DNA from: Candidatus Poribacteria bacterium
Lineage (GTDB): Bacteria; Poribacteria; DTPJ01; WJIO01
Direction: 5' to 3'
Length of the DNA: 5,665 bases
Assembly: GCA_014730235.1 (NCBI GenBank)
Contig: WJIO01000425.1
Location: 1-5,665 of the forward strand
Below are positions 1-5,665 of the stretch, piece after piece (the first letter of the stretch is position 1; every line of letters begins with the position of its first letter). Both the position numbers and the translations under genes were made by a program. The notes under the pieces were generated by a model. It ran no database searches and had not been told where the DNA came from. It saw nothing but the letters and a program-made list of their open reading frames with translations.

Positions 1-252
1 ATATGTCCTCAGGGAGCAATAAGTGATTACTGGAAACCATCCAAAGATGGAGCTGGAAATTCCATCATCTATATATGTTTCCCAAAAGCCAAATGCCTTT
101 TATGCGAGAGTCGGTCATTATGCACACGTAGCAAGAAAGGCTGCAGAACCATAGGTATACGTCCCCAAGCCCAGTATGAGGCTTTACAGAAAGCTCGTAA
201 GCGGGAGAAGACCCAGGAATGGCAAGTATGTCATGGTAACCCATTCAGATGA
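1..252 (+). pseudogene. IS1182-type transposase, internal/C-terminal fragment (5' cut by window, 3' broken)
   Basis: Frame 1 is open from the window start to a TGA at 250-252 (83 residues). It begins ICPQG and carries a cysteine cluster (C32, C35, C41, C48) followed by a basic helical stretch (EALQKARKREKTQEW). This 'CPxG ... CxxC ... CTRSKKG' pattern is typical of the region just before the last catalytic part of IS1182-family DDE transposases (DDE_Tnp_1_6 type), which cut and paste their own element. In intact relatives the chain continues after this helix into a segment with the catalytic Glu. Here the similarity ends around W74 (220-222), and eight further residues lead to the stop, so the catalytic end is missing. 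The sequence downstream belongs to another transposase in another frame. The family call is from memory of the motif pattern. I am confident that it is a transposase relic and less sure of the subgroup. Confidence 0.72.
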
Positions 253-586
253 ATGTCCCTTGGGGGTGCTGTGCAGTCCTGACACCAAGCATGCACCGGT
301 AGTTTATGTCAAGACCAGGGATGATCCCCGACTGTATCCCCCTGTCCGACGTGGTTCATCCCAATACAAAAAACTCATGAACCTGCGGAGTGGCTGCGAA
401 CGGTCAAATGCCCAGAAGAAGGAAGTCTATGGCTTAGGCAGCAGGCCTTGCCGGAGTGATACTCATTTCCTGATTAGGTTATATCTTGTGTCTATCATTG
501 AGCATGCAAAGGCATGGCTGGCAGAAGACATGAAGGAGTCAGACGCCAGTAATCCGGCTGATTTTCTGAAGGCGTCAAGCCCATAG
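176..586 (+). pseudogene. DDE transposase C-terminal remnant of a second, different IS
   Basis: This is a 136-codon reading frame in frame 2. The first ~14 residues (MRLYRKLVSGRRPR) are only an out-of-frame reading of the IS1182 relic. Recognisable transposase sequence starts near residue 15 (about 218). It runs through an ECPLG-like cysteine segment (C27, C33), DDPRLYPPVRRGS (49-61), and RSGCERSNAQKK (71-82), the 'R..CER.N' motif carrying the third catalytic acid, E75. It continues into a hydrophobic helix LIRLYLVSIIEHAKAWLAED (99-118) and ends at TAG 584-586. This is the usual end of an IS4/IS5-superfamily DDE transposase, but the N-terminal region with both catalytic Asp residues is absent. 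The ATG at 176 is therefore not a genuine start, and no activity is expected. The fragment keeps an open frame, which suggests the rearrangement is fairly recent. The exact IS family is uncertain. Confidence 0.7.
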
Positions 587-807: not shown

Positions 808-828
808 AGTCGGGTCTACTATTCTAAC
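808..828 (-). repeat. Truncated terminal CRISPR repeat (21 nt)
   Basis: It is identical to the first 21 minus-strand bases of the full repeat. The remaining 16 bases, including the ATTGAAAC tag, are replaced by unrelated sequence (792-807) that belongs to the neighbouring inverted repeat. A crRNA ending here could still have a normal 5' handle, because that handle comes from the intact repeat. Confidence 0.68.
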
Positions 829-866
829 AGGAGTACCAGCTGAAACTAGATATCTCTGGGCAATCT

Positions 867-903
867 GTTTCAATCCCCTTGAAGTCGGGTCTACTATTCT
901 AAC
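867..903 (-). repeat. Intact CRISPR direct repeat (37 nt)
   Basis: This is the leader-proximal repeat. On the minus strand it starts GTTAGAATAG, has CCCGAC in the middle and ends ATTGAAAC. The central part offers only weak pairing (CCCGACTTCAAGGGG), so a long stable hairpin is not evident. Confidence 0.7.
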
Positions 904-1013
904 ATACCCCTTTTTAAAGCCTTGATATATAAGGCTTTAGACAGCCATTTTTCCAAAGCTATACTTTGTGAATGCTTAATTAACATTTGCTAATAGGTTT
1001 TGAGTCAATTTTA
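904..1013 (-). promoter_or_regulatory. Probable CRISPR leader with possible promoter
   Basis: This is the AT-rich tract upstream, in minus-strand sense, of the intact repeat, where a leader is expected. On the minus strand a TTGACT (1008 down to 1003) lies 18 bases before GTTAAT (984-979), a weak-to-fair sigma70 pair that would transcribe into the array. Thirteen bases from the repeat there is a 9-bp perfect inverted repeat: TAAAGCCTT (915-923) and AAGGCTTTA (931-939). The leader call follows from array polarity. The promoter elements are only a suggestion, and the TTGACT overlaps the terminal repeat of the 1001-1118 element. Confidence 0.35.
915..939. repeat. 9-bp perfect inverted repeat in the CRISPR leader
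   Basis: TAAAGCCTT and AAGGCTTTA pair around GATATAT. It sits immediately outside the intact CRISPR repeat and lacks a 3' T-run on either strand. It could be a protein-binding site or an RNA hairpin in the array transcript. Confidence 0.5.
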
Positions 1014-1301: not shown

Positions 1302-2867
1302 ATGAAAAAAATAATGAAATATAATATAATTTGCATAGTTATTTTAATATCTCTATATTATGCAGATAACGTATTTGCTAATACTGACAGTCTGGAGTTT
1401 TTATATAGTAAATATAAAGTAGATGAACTTAAGGCTGACTTTGTTATAATGATAGACACATCCGGTTCAATGAATCAGGCGGAGAGATTTAAACAAGTTA
1501 AACAATCAACGGCTGAATTTATACAAGCCTTAAATTACGGTGATTATTTATCTATAATTGCATTTGACAATATAACCAGGTATCTGGTAATTCCACAAGA
1601 GATTTCAATTATTAACAGGGATAAAGTTTATCAAGCTATTTTAAATCTATCCCCGCCAAAAGGACAAAAAACTGATATAGGAAGGGCATTGGAACAGGCC
1701 GTATCTGAATTAAACAGACCCAAATCTAACAAATTGCAATTTCTTCTCTTTATAACCGATGGCAAACATGATCCACCACAAAACAGCCAATATCTTACCT
1801 CTGAATCTGAAGAATGGAATAAACTTGTAAATAATACAAGTCGAGTTTTAAAAGGACACCTGATTCAGGCAATTGCTTTGGGTTTAACAAGCAATGCTGA
1901 TATAGAATTGGTAAAAAGGGTATTTCCTGATACTATACCACTGATTGTGGATAAAAATGGTCTTAAAGCCTTCTTTAAAAGATTAAAAGATGAAATCAGG
2001 ATGAGAAAACTTGCACTTCAGATTCAAGAGGAATTAAATTCCAATAATCTGTCTTTATCTTATAAAACCAAGCAGCCAATAAAAATTAAATCCGGCAGCA
2101 TACAAACAATATCAATGGACATTAAATCCGGTTATAATAATCTCAATCTGATAGCCAGTCTGGATAACATAGAATCCGATAATAAATCATTTTCATTGTC
2201 TTTATCTTCTTCACCATGTGCTTTTAAACTTAGTCCAGGGGATAATGAAGAATGTTTAATTTCCGTAAAAAATCTGGAGAAAAAAGACTGGTTTTCTTTA
2301 AGGAAAATAGAAAATATAGATTTAAATATAATCCATAAAATTTCTTTGGAATTTAAACCTGAAAACCCCTTGGCAAAAATAGGAATTGACAATAAAAAAC
2401 AGGATATATATAAGATTAAACTTCAATTGCAATTATCTTCGGGTTTCACTATATGGCAAATCAGTCTGTTTTTAACCAGTGTGTTAGCATTGACATTAGC
2501 TTTATGGATATTTGTTTTTAAGCCTATAAGGGCGAGAATTAAACCACCAGAATTACATGGAACTCTAATGTTTTTGGATGCGCCACCAGGTCAATCCTTA
2601 AGCACTATTAGCTTAGAGGGAACTGAATCTAAAATACTGGGCAGTGATGAATCATGTGATATAAAATTACCTGGAGCATCAATAGAACCTCAGCACGCAG
2701 TGATTTATGCTGAAAAACCCGGAAAAATGTTCGTGAAATCTACAGGTGGTAAAGTTGCTATACAGGATTTAACAACTTATGAAGAAACAGATATATATTT
2801 CTCCGCACATGAGCTTAATTCAGGTTCAGTAATAAAAATCGGAGATTATAGGATTCAATGGTCATAG
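1302..2867 (+). CDS. Membrane-anchored VWA domain protein with cytoplasmic FHA-like domain
   Basis: The protein has 521 residues. Residues 1-26 form a signal peptide (basic MKKIMK, hydrophobic core IICIVILISLYY, likely cleavage after VFA). A von Willebrand A domain spans ~45-235 with a complete MIDAS metal site: D52-T-S54-G-S56, T124 and D153. Residues 240-380 form a mostly beta-like linker with a Cys pair (C306, C318). A transmembrane helix (~383-406) is followed by KPIRARIK, a positive-inside signal, so VWA faces the periplasm and the C-terminus the cytoplasm. Residues ~418-521 resemble an FHA domain (ILGSDESCDIKLPG ... PQHAVI ... SGSVIKIGDYRIQW), but the usual pThr-contacting Arg and Ser are S448 and E462; H465 is kept. 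The first ATG is chosen because an in-frame TGA lies at 1263-1265; M5 (1314) is an alternative. No Shine-Dalgarno site is visible. The likely role is an envelope scaffold or adhesion/sensing partner of the tubulin-like protein encoded next. The domains are well supported; the role is inferred from context. Confidence 0.88.
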   Translation: MKKIMKYNIICIVILISLYYADNVFANTDSLEFLYSKYKVDELKADFVIMIDTSGSMNQAERFKQVKQSTAEFIQALNYGDYLSIIAFDNITRYLVIPQEISIINRDKVYQAILNLSPPKGQKTDIGRALEQAVSELNRPKSNKLQFLLFITDGKHDPPQNSQYLTSESEEWNKLVNNTSRVLKGHLIQAIALGLTSNADIELVKRVFPDTIPLIVDKNGLKAFFKRLKDEIRMRKLALQIQEELNSNNLSLSYKTKQPIKIKSGSIQTISMDIKSGYNNLNLIASLDNIESDNKSFSLSLSSSPCAFKLSPGDNEECLISVKNLEKKDWFSLRKIENIDLNIIHKISLEFKPENPLAKIGIDNKKQDIYKIKLQLQLSSGFTIWQISLFLTSVLALTLALWIFVFKPIRARIKPPELHGTLMFLDAPPGQSLSTISLEGTESKILGSDESCDIKLPGASIEPQHAVIYAEKPGKMFVKSTGGKVAIQDLTTYEETDIYFSAHELNSGSVIKIGDYRIQWS

Positions 2868-2871
2868 GAGG
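2866..2871 (+). promoter_or_regulatory. Strong Shine-Dalgarno site of the tubulin-like gene
   Basis: AGGAGG lies five bases before the ATG at 2877 and overlaps the TAG stop of the VWA gene. This fixes the start of the second gene and suggests tight coupling within one mRNA. The first gene of the operon has no comparable site, so the downstream protein may be made in greater amount. Confidence 0.8.
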
Positions 2872-2876
2872 GGAAA

Positions 2877-5665
2877 ATGTCTGATAATACAGAAATAATA
2901 CAATCTGTTCAAAAGAATATCGAACCTACTTTATTTGTTGGTTTAGGCGGAACAGGAGCAGAAATTATATCGAGAGTTCGAAGAAAATTGAACCTGTTAT
3001 ATGCTGAAACTAATCCAGAGGAACTTGAACTTATACAATATGCTGTATTGGATACATGTCCCTATGAAAGTCATAGTAGTTATGTGAAAGAGGGATTAGA
3101 TCCCAATAAGCATTATTTTTACCTTGGTGGATTTAACCCGTCAGATGAAATATCAAGCCAGTATGAATATAACGATGACCTCAGAGATTGGTGGGATAGA
3201 AATGCCTATGTGCCAACGGCGATACTGGACGATGGTGCATCCAGAGAAAGACTTCTGGGAAGGTTATGCTTGTATCGAAATCGAAACAGGATATGGACAG
3301 AACTGGAATCAAAAATAGTCAATTCCAATAATCTCAGGGATAGACTACTTTCACAGGATAATCTCGTAAGTAATAACAACTGCCAGATGTATATTGTCAC
3401 TGGTTCATGTGGAGGTACAGGAAGCGGAATGTTTCTGGATTTATCTCATATGTTATGGAGAATTGGAGATGAAACATTTGGAAATCCACCTGATATTACT
3501 GCGGTAATAGTGCTACCATTTATATACGCTCGCAAATATCGTAGTATAAGTCCGAATTTAGAGACTATATATAGAGCTAATGGCTATGCTTTTCTCCGGG
3601 AATTAGAATATTTTCTGGAAAACCCTGAACAGATAAATGATTACTGTTTTGATTCTTTTGAGCGCAAGTCAGGAGAAATACCACAAATAAACAACTGGCG
3701 TCCTTTCCATCAAGCCTATCTAATTGATAACGAGATAAGTGGTGCAGGCCAAATTCGTGACACGAAAGACTTATATTCCTATATATCAAAGTCGCTTTTT
3801 CATTGGTATGTAACCCCAAATCAAGCTTTTGCACCGCTGATATTAAGCAATATAAAACGAAGACTGGAACATGGCAGGGACCAACTATATGATAAGCCAA
3901 CAGCTTTTAGCTGCGTAGGTATATCAACGCTGGAATACCCAAGACAGTTGATTTTGAATTATCTTAGAAATAAATTTTCATACGATATAATACAAAATGC
4001 TTTTCTGAAAAGTGGAGATTGGATGTCACAATCAGCCAAAAATGAATCTCAGGGCATTGAAGGTGGTAGTGGTAAAGGTTGGGTTGACCATCTGGGAAGA
4101 GATCAACTAAAAGAACTGGAAAGGCTTCTTGGCGATGAGATAAGAAGTTTAATGAATGCATGTCCAAGCCTGGATAGTTTTAAAAAAGATAGTGAATTAG
4201 ACCATGATCAGCTTTTGGAGCAGGCCAGAAAATTTGTAGACGCGTTTGAAAACATTGTGCAGCAAAGTGCTCCACAGAGATTTAAGGAAATATATTCTAG
4301 CTTTATCAAAGATACAAAGTCTGAGATAGAGACTACTATAGGTGAGTTACTTGATACATGTAAACATGGTATACACTATGTTCGAGAGATAATACTTCAG
4401 ACAGATAACCTTTTAACTGAAAATCTCAGCCAGATAAGAGAAGAAATACATAAAAAAGACAGCAGTTTTAAAGCCTTGAAGCAGAATCTTTTAAATGGTA
4501 AAGAAGAAGGTTCAATAAGCTCTATAAAAGATGCCAAAGGTAAACTGTTGAGAAAAGATAAAATTCTGGCAAATGTGATTGAGAAATTTGTTGATAACTT
4601 AAAAAGCTTCCTTTCTGCTGGGTTAGAAAGAGAAGCGGCGGAAATTAAAGAAAAACTTATTTTGGACATAGCTGGTGATCCCCAGGCTGCAAGAACAACA
4701 AAAATGCAGGTAGTAGAAGCACATCAGGGACACCAGGTGGAACTCTCAATTCTGGATAGATGGGTATCAGATATAAGGAATTTCGCTGCTGATCTGGAAA
4801 AACTTGCTTTAGAATTAAATGATAACGCAAAATTAAACAGATATTATGCCGCAGGTTCAGAACTAACAACACAGTATACTCCCAAGGCAACTTCTATTGA
4901 AGAACTGAAGGAAAGCGAAAGAATCCAGGAGATATATTCAGGCAAAGTAAACTCTCAGGCAGATGAACTTGAAAATTTACTTCAATCCTGGCATAGTGAT
5001 AATGAATTAGAAATAAAATTGCATAACCTTGACCAAAAAGACCAGGTTTTGGATTTATTAAAGGAGCTTCTTAGGAAACGAGCAGAATTTCTATTTGTGG
5101 GCGAAACATCCAAATCCATACATCAACAACTGGCACAGGTTTCCGCAGAAGAGAATAAAGAGTTGTATGATAGACTTGTCAGCCTGTCAGCTCCTTCATG
5201 CCGTTTGGATATTGCCAGACTTAATCAACACGATAGAGAAGCTATTTCAACAATATGGTCTCTTGGCAGTCAGGAGGATATTTTAGATAACCTGGGTATA
5301 AGTGCTCCTGGAAGGATTGCCTGGAGCAAGACTGAACCGGATAAAATATCTCTTGTTACTTTACAGCATGGATTTCCACTTTATGCTATAGAGGGTATAG
5401 AACTGCTTCGTTCTGCATACAATTCGGTTGTGTCAAACCAGCGAATATGTCCACACATTCGGGCCCAATGGAATAGAAGTAGTTTGGAGGAAAGGAGTGA
5501 AGCAAGTGTCTCCATATCAGAAGACGCAAAACTATATTTTTCTCTGGGGTTATTTGTTGATTATCTTTTAAAATTTGACGACACAAAAATATACGTTGAG
5601 GAATTATTCAACCAGGAAGTTACTTTTAATAAACAAGAAAGAAAAGGTTTTATTCATAAATCCGA
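2877..5665 (+). CDS. Tubulin/FtsZ-superfamily protein (Tubulin_2 / tubulin-like), 3' end beyond window
   Basis: The frame stays open for 929 codons to the window end without a stop, so the protein is larger than this. It begins MSDNTEIIQS. The N-terminal ~400 residues show the nucleotide-binding core of the tubulin/FtsZ superfamily: strand plus T1 loop LFVGLGGTGAEI (19-30), a strand ending AVLDT (56-60), a basic segment ERLLGRLCLYRN (124-135), and the tubulin signature C178GGTGSG184 preceded by strand MYIVTGS, then a helix. I could not identify the T7 catalytic loop. Residues ~405-760 are charged and largely helical, with coiled-coil character (440-600, 675-740). A more hydrophobic conserved-looking stretch, ISLVTLQHGFPLYAIEG, lies at 824-840. 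It has no signal peptide or membrane helix, so it should be cytoplasmic. It starts nine bases after the VWA gene, clearly co-transcribed. Family knowledge: such FtsZ-like proteins occur beside VWA membrane proteins and are predicted to remodel membranes. GTP binding is likely; hydrolysis and polymerisation are unproven. Confidence 0.85.
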   Translation, partial: MSDNTEIIQSVQKNIEPTLFVGLGGTGAEIISRVRRKLNLLYAETNPEELELIQYAVLDTCPYESHSSYVKEGLDPNKHYFYLGGFNPSDEISSQYEYNDDLRDWWDRNAYVPTAILDDGASRERLLGRLCLYRNRNRIWTELESKIVNSNNLRDRLLSQDNLVSNNNCQMYIVTGSCGGTGSGMFLDLSHMLWRIGDETFGNPPDITAVIVLPFIYARKYRSISPNLETIYRANGYAFLRELEYFLENPEQINDYCFDSFERKSGEIPQINNWRPFHQAYLIDNEISGAGQIRDTKDLYSYISKSLFHWYVTPNQAFAPLILSNIKRRLEHGRDQLYDKPTAFSCVGISTLEYPRQLILNYLRNKFSYDIIQNAFLKSGDWMSQSAKNESQGIEGGSGKGWVDHLGRDQLKELERLLGDEIRSLMNACPSLDSFKKDSELDHDQLLEQARKFVDAFENIVQQSAPQRFKEIYSSFIKDTKSEIETTIGELLDTCKHGIHYVREIILQTDNLLTENLSQIREEIHKKDSSFKALKQNLLNGKEEGSISSIKDAKGKLLRKDKILANVIEKFVDNLKSFLSAGLEREAAEIKEKLILDIAGDPQAARTTKMQVVEAHQGHQVELSILDRWVSDIRNFAADLEKLALELNDNAKLNRYYAAGSELTTQYTPKATSIEELKESERIQEIYSGKVNSQADELENLLQSWHSDNELEIKLHNLDQKDQVLDLLKELLRKRAEFLFVGETSKSIHQQLAQVSAEENKELYDRLVSLSAPSCRLDIARLNQHDREAISTIWSLGSQEDILDNLGISAPGRIAWSKTEPDKISLVTLQHGFPLYAIEGIELLRSAYNSVVSNQRICPHIRAQWNRSSLEERSEASVSISEDAKLYFSLGLFVDYLLKFDDTKIYVEELFNQEVTFNKQERKGFIHKS

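Follow-up and report, generated by a model that had tools for sequence, protein, structure and literature searches.

A VWA membrane protein encoded beside a long-armed tubulin homologue in Candidatus Poribacteria: a possible membrane-anchored tubulin switch

The window, which is the whole 5665 bp stretch analysed here and also an entire contig (C372) of its genome, carries two neighbouring genes. The first one codes for a membrane protein with a VWA domain and a tail of FHA type, the second one for a large tubulin-like protein. Our tentative reading, to which we give slightly less than an even chance, is that they belong to a membrane-anchored switch or scaffold based on tubulin: a VWA receptor, a FHA-fold tail, a GTP-gated tubulin and probably a degenerate tubulin partner. 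What counts for it are the intact motifs, the orthologous pair of locus L078 with its second tubulin, the contrast in an acidic T7-like residue between two classes of operon, the superposition on CetZ1 and the FHA-like tails of related proteins.

The gene pair and its relatives

The genome has 5.53 Mb in 451 contigs and is 91.6% complete. In the window two co-directed ORFs occupy positions 1302–5663; they are separated, stop to start, by nine bases (2868–2876), just as the first-pass annotation had described them. All features are given in Table 1. The tubulin gene runs past the end of the contig, which counts against our reading. The same genome has a second pair of VWA and Tubulin_2 genes in contig C418 and a separate canonical FtsZ in contig C139 (PF00091, 8.5e-48). 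When all six frames of this genome were searched with PF00091, there was a signal at C139, a weak one at C418 and none at C372.

Table 1. Features of the window, in the order of their positions
Feature	Position	Strand	Evidence
IS1182-family transposase, 3' remnant (neighbour outside the system)	1–586	+	PF13751 1.3e-9; IS1182 NF033551 8e-7; homologous block on C422
CRISPR mini-array: truncated repeat 808–829, spacer 830–866, full repeat 867–904 (neighbour)	808–904	+	Repeats; same repeat on C422
VWA-TM-FHA-fold membrane protein, 521 aa	1302–2867	+	ORF; Pfam VWA_2 1.7e-15, VWA 1.2e-13, FHA 3.1e-6; L078 orthologue aligned over 461 aa
Signal-peptide-like hydrophobic N-terminus, residues 8–26	1323–1379	+	Hydropathy; helix in model
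VWA domain, MIDAS DTSGS 52–56, T124, D153	1437–1796	+	Pfam; conserved columns; model Z 19.6
Single TM helix, residues 387–405	2460–2516	+	Hydropathy 2.39; helix 385–412 in model
Putative cytosolic FHA-fold tail, apparently without the pThr-binding Arg, Ser and Asn	2637–2843	+	PF00498; alignment with canonical FHA domains; tail model pLDDT 42–76
AGGAGGGG, ribosome-binding-like stretch 5' of the tubulin ATG	2866–2873	+	Sequence
Tubulin-superfamily (FtsZl1/Tubulin_2) protein, 929 aa readable, 3' end beyond contig	2877–5663	+	PF13809 2.4e-44; L077 orthologue 26% over 940 aa, E 3e-65
Tubulin core part 1 (predicted), residues 15–380; T1 at 22–27, T4 at 177–184	2919–4016	+	AF2 pLDDT mostly 80–96; Foldseek
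Putative T7-like loop position, WYVTPNQ, without the acidic residue of many relatives	3798–3830	+	Alignments; equivalence to FtsZ T7 inferred
Helical/coiled-coil arm inserted in the tubulin fold (predicted), residues ~381–784	4017–5228	+	AF2 secondary structure; superposition range 16–853, 304 aligned residues
Tubulin core part 2 (predicted), residues ~785–876, completing the second domain	5229–5504	+	AF2 pLDDT 80–94 at 821–870; CetZ1 alignment ends at residue 853

Relatives were obtained from genome searches and from a scan with an alignment as query. Single-sequence scans of a collection of genome contigs and of IMG/VR with the tubulin protein gave no relative, and a PF13809 search within the same GTDB family found this genome alone. 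Two loci have an orthologous pair. In L078, from candidate division WOR-3, the VWA protein is 25% identical over 461 aa (E 8e-36) and the tubulin 32% over 389 aa. In L077, from Abditibacteriales, the tubulin aligns along nearly its whole readable length (Table 1) and has a VWA partner in front. More generally, a protein with a DxSxS (MIDAS) motif is found directly upstream in at least 40 of the 77 related tubulin genes with a readable upstream gene, a count made with a regular expression in which many loci are Nostocales. The co-occurrence of both genes, which had been supposed from a single stretch, is thus real. The window is a diverged member of this group, with orthologues at only two of the loci seen. 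In L078 the pair is followed by a second tubulin homologue and then (7633–10542) by a transglutaminase-like membrane protein, a MlaD protein and an ion channel with a RCK domain; in L067, too, a transglutaminase-like protein comes after the tubulin, as judged by eye.

The VWA membrane protein

By hydropathy the order of segments is signal peptide, VWA domain, a poorly modelled stalk, TM helix and tail. The VWA domain would lie outside the membrane and the tail in the cytosol. The VWA_2 match of Table 1 covers residues 48–155. Residues D52, S54, S56, T124 and D153 of the MIDAS fall in invariant or near-invariant columns in the alignment of relatives, so that the metal site (DxSxS, T, D) appears complete. 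The predicted domain superposes on a solved VWA structure (4fx5) over 176 residues, with Z 19.6 and rmsd 2.5. Hydropathy, Pfam and conserved columns agree with the architecture first proposed from the sequence: a signal peptide, a VWA domain with intact MIDAS, one TM helix and a FHA-like tail.

The tail is matched by Pfam FHA (PF00498) at residues 446–514 with 27.9 bits, for a cut-off of 20.7; in a genome-wide FHA search it scores E 1.2e-6. Compared with canonical FHA domains, IGR is replaced by LGS, the S three residues before the His is replaced by E and NG(T) is gone, while the His is retained. From this alignment the Arg, Ser and Asn of the pThr pocket appear to be lost. The model gives the tail a low to moderate confidence (Table 1), which counts against our reading.

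Many VWA partner proteins have a tail of some 100 residues behind the TM helix. An HMM made from 13 such tails, with that of the window excluded, matches 47 proteins whose genes directly precede that of a tubulin, and also one canonical FHA protein (E 3.9e-8). It seems, then, that a cytosolic tail of FHA-like type is a common feature of VWA partners. The window tail itself matches this HMM weakly (E 0.41), which also counts against our reading; it is reached independently by Pfam FHA, as are 2 of the 33 partner proteins scanned. A comparison of cyanobacterial tails with window-type tails by hhalign was weak (53%), and a phmmer comparison of the FHA tail with the PDB gave only chance-level matches. 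The FHA protein of contig C84, which has a similar length, turned out to be unrelated to the VWA-FHA protein. Its locus in the same genome (L162, 1444–5964) codes for a FHA-containing protein with a P-loop-like end, beside further uncharacterised ORFs, and is possibly a separate locus of conflict type.

The tubulin-like protein

The Tubulin_2 profile (PF13809) covers residues 19–371 with 152.5 bits (E 2.4e-44), well above the cut-off of 27. Together with the matches of the VWA and FHA models, it bears out the classes first assigned to both proteins. The T1 loop (GLGGTG, 22–27) and the T4 loop (CGGTGSG, 178–184), also noticed at that stage, are both present: their glycines G22, G24, G27 and G179–G184 are nearly invariant in an alignment of 36 sequences. 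Through these two loops the protein would bind GTP.

An AlphaFold2 model was obtained from the 36-sequence alignment, with plasmid rows left out. It has a mean pLDDT of 76, and the small alignment counts against our reading. Among the 50 Foldseek matches listed there are only tubulin and FtsZ. VIA-align superposes 304 of the 330 residues of CetZ1 on the model range 16–853 (Z 26.1, rmsd 3.4), and with tubulin it superposes 347 residues, reaching model residue 876. Long helices are found at 399–770, followed by an alpha/beta segment at 785–876. The first part of the core ends around residue 380, therefore the rest of the second-domain strands must come from 785–876. The model thus predicts that the C-terminal part finishes a tubulin fold which is interrupted by a helical arm of about 400 residues. 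That the C-terminal half looked unlike tubulin would then be simple to explain: the fold would be interrupted, not replaced.

A T7-like loop and two operon subclasses

Many relatives have a motif [ILM][DE]F[SAG]x[DE], with consensus LDFSxEF, between the predicted helices H7 and H8. It is near to the VDFADV of the genome's own FtsZ. When the FtsZl1 profiles were compared with this FtsZ by hhalign, the T4 region alone was aligned, so that the name T7 for the loop comes from its motif and position and should be taken as tentative, which counts against our reading. At this column, assigned by motif, the window reads WYV in the alignment.

The operons fall into two subclasses. In the Mot-like subclass, in cyanobacteria, the tubulin gene is followed by MotA/ExbB-like and MotB/OmpA-like genes; in relatives from the phylum of the window the Mot-like genes are upstream and a Hsp70-like gene comes after the tubulin. 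In the tandem subclass a large protein follows the tubulin, with about 530 to 1100 aa where it is complete. The T7-like column has D or E in 25 of the 26 tubulins classed with Mot-like genes nearby, whereas the acid is missing in 32 of the 34 main tubulins with an adjacent second homologue. After clustering, the Fisher p is 0.001 at 60% identity, 0.015 at 45% and 0.03 at 40%: judged from these alignments, the contrast remains when relatedness is taken into account, but it is modest. The orthologue L078 belongs to the tandem subclass, as do the copies in Thermaceae plasmids. The window appears to have no T7-like acid and is therefore placed in the tandem subclass; the contig ends before the next gene.

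The large downstream protein is, as judged by profile comparison, a tubulin homologue without GTP loops. Of 15 second proteins, 6 match Tubulin_2 with an E of at most 0.1, the lowest being 3e-28. Between the profile of this family and that of the main tubulins hhalign aligns 712 columns (E 1e-40), and the gene after the tubulin in L078 is such a homologue (97%, E 5e-11). None of the 32 members keeps the GGTGSG loop, and none of the three downstream proteins scanned has a curated NCBIfam name. Firmicutes systems with two tubulins were noted earlier (PMC7159879); an earlier description of a partner without GTP loops was not found in the literature. The possibility that the second homologue supplies the T7 acid in trans was dropped, as there is no consistent acid in the second homologues. 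By analogy with the orthologue, the genome of the window would also have such a partner. A search of this genome (92% complete) with the second-tubulin profile gave nothing beyond the two known tubulin genes, which counts against our reading; a search for the rest of the operon with the downstream protein of L067 gave the same result.

The Mot-like subclass suggests a different function, in which the envelope would be moved or shaped by the tubulin-like protein together with OmpA-like anchors and Mot/Tol-like proteins driven by protons, the VWA protein being a periplasmic arm. Several loci of the same phylum (L026–L031) share a conserved block with genes for MotA/ExbB-like, OmpA/MotB-like, zinc-ribbon and VWA-like proteins, a small membrane protein, Tubulin_2, a Hsp70/MreB-like protein and others. 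This is a system of envelope type in which both the tubulin and the actin fold have relatives. This combination, the MotA-like and MotB-like pair after the cyanobacterial tubulin, the MlaD gene of L078 and the motor-coupled vWA proteins predicted in PMC12204202 all speak for such a function. The window, however, has the features of the other subclass, a short tubulin and apparently no T7 acid, and no Mot-like gene is found in the 10.5 kb examined in L078. We consider an envelope motor unlikely here.

The apparent losses of the T7 acid and of the phosphate-binding residues of the FHA tail might also mean that the operon is degenerating and its function has been lost, the more so as an IS remnant and a truncated CRISPR repeat are found upstream. 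Yet neither frame is interrupted in 1,450 codons, and the MIDAS, T1 and T4 motifs are conserved. By the same alignment the T7 acid is also absent from the orthologues L077 and L078, which belong to other phyla, and therefore its loss is old. A decaying locus is highly improbable.

The neighbouring IS and CRISPR sequences

The region 253–1095 of the window, which contains the transposase end, the IS edge, the truncated repeat, the spacer, the full repeat and a leader, is 80% identical to positions 387–1228 of locus L163 on contig C422. There it adjoins type III cas genes (Cas6, Csm2 and Csm3). Leader-like copies are also found on contig C128. The blocks of C372 and C422 have different spacers, and their first repeats are truncated at an identical position, as though the element were lying in a repeat. 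An imperfect inverted repeat (1001–1118) with 24-nt arms, 75% complementary, is found at the leader's distal end, before the operon; it could be a feature of the leader or of a promoter. What had been called a CRISPR remnant beside IS debris is indeed adjacent to it, but it is an array of two repeats (one truncated) with one spacer and a leader, in a block repeated on another contig. The block is an independent repeated unit outside the operon and gives no evidence for mobility of the latter. In several lineages the relatives sit among housekeeping-looking genes, for example a lipB-like gene (read by eye). The suggestion of a mobile accessory cassette is not sustained by these data.

A role in conflict had also been suggested. 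In such an anti-phage or conflict role the VWA protein would sense an event at the surface, and the tubulin-like protein would assemble as a sensor or effector scaffold. Support comes from outside the window, whose locus gives no evidence of its own: systems predicted in PMC7159879 join GTPases, tubulins (two in the Firmicutes versions) and vWA proteins, and in Thermaceae plasmids the trio of VWA protein, tubulin and second homologue lies beside Hma genes and brxL. In these plasmids (L068, L069) brxL comes after the trio, and HmaB/HmaC are upstream in L069. Caspase-family and OmpA genes are also found near an Azospirillum plasmid copy. On the other hand, PADLOC has no match to the VWA protein and matches the tubulin weakly, as LmuB (E 0.015); the adjoining CRISPR/IS block is independent; several relatives lie among genes of housekeeping appearance; and IMG/VR yielded only one relative, a locus found with the alignment query. 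A conflict role of the window system is possible, and as its main explanation we find it doubtful.

Proposed mechanism

In the switch or scaffold that we favour, the VWA domain would bind a ligand outside the cytoplasmic membrane through its metal site, and one TM helix would join it to the FHA-fold tail in the cytosol. The tail would recruit the large tubulin-like GTPase. The pThr-binding residues are missing from the tail, so that this docking, if real, is probably independent of phosphate, as judged by the alignment. The recruited protein, with a helical arm of some 400 residues projecting from the second domain of its fold, would bind GTP through the intact T1 and T4 loops. With a T7-like loop that lacks its acid, the protein is expected to be poor at the usual head-to-tail hydrolysis of GTP. 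A second tubulin homologue which has lost the GTP loops would probably act with it, as in related operons. Instead of a treadmilling filament, the outcome may be an assembly at the membrane that is gated by GTP and is slow or goes one way; it would serve either envelope organisation or defence.

A more ambitious version is that of a distinct prokaryotic tubulin machine. In it a transmembrane VWA receptor would control the joint assembly of a long-armed GTP-binding tubulin without the T7 acid and a homologue without GTP loops; the polymer or ring that these two make at the membrane would be GTP-gated, essentially irreversible and linked to a ligand outside. We regard it as rather unlikely. If it is correct, there are prokaryotes in which a tubulin works together with a degenerate one, both being controlled from outside the cell. 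FtsZl1/Tubulin_2 proteins are found in many bacterial phyla and in some archaea, and the predicted interruption of the fold by an arm, the apparent lack of a catalytic residue and the probably phosphate-blind tail are new clues on how such systems might work.

Comparison with known systems

The SctD/YscD/PrgH proteins of type III secretion are single-pass inner-membrane proteins with a cytosolic domain of FHA fold. The VWA protein of the window shares this organisation. It differs by having an extracytoplasmic VWA domain instead of ring-building domains, and a tubulin homologue as its partner; the Yop-YscD_cpl profile matches it below the cut-off (E 7e-4, 20.2 bits, cut-off 33.2). With CetZ, tubulin and FtsZ the tubulin-like protein shares the fold (Z 26 to CetZ1) and the T1 and T4 GTP-binding loops, but it has the arm of about 400 residues, apparently no T7 acid, and no match to PF00091.

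The GAP1-N2 conflict systems (PMC7159879) also have a tubulin with a C-terminal coiled coil and an extracellular vWA protein with a TM helix. Their tubulin-bearing versions come from Firmicutes and Actinobacteria, those of Firmicutes with two tubulins. No gene for a GAP1 or TRAFAC GTPase is visible on the 5.7-kb contig of the window, which ends within the tubulin gene.

The closest systems are the vWA/FtsZl1 operons described by Makarova and Koonin in 2010 (PMC2875224). The link to these FtsZ-like families, already proposed in the first-pass annotation, is supported by the Tubulin_2 match and by the vWA gene in the same operon. The kind of system is therefore known; an experimental characterisation of any FtsZl1/Tubulin_2 protein was not found in the literature. 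Genes for an associated GTPase, OmpA-like protein or kinase are frequent in these operons, not universal, and none is found on the contig upstream of the window pair. An N-terminal FtsZ-like GTP-binding domain, a long coiled coil and a C-terminal domain are common to both, as are an adjoining vWA gene with TM or signal peptide and a canonical FtsZ elsewhere in the genome. In PMC2875224 no resemblance to tubulin was seen in the C-terminal domain, and T6-H7 could not be placed; in our model the C-terminal part belongs to the tubulin fold, and some members of the family have a recognisable T7-like motif. A FHA-type tail on the vWA protein is not mentioned in the main text of that work, whereas the protein of the window has one.
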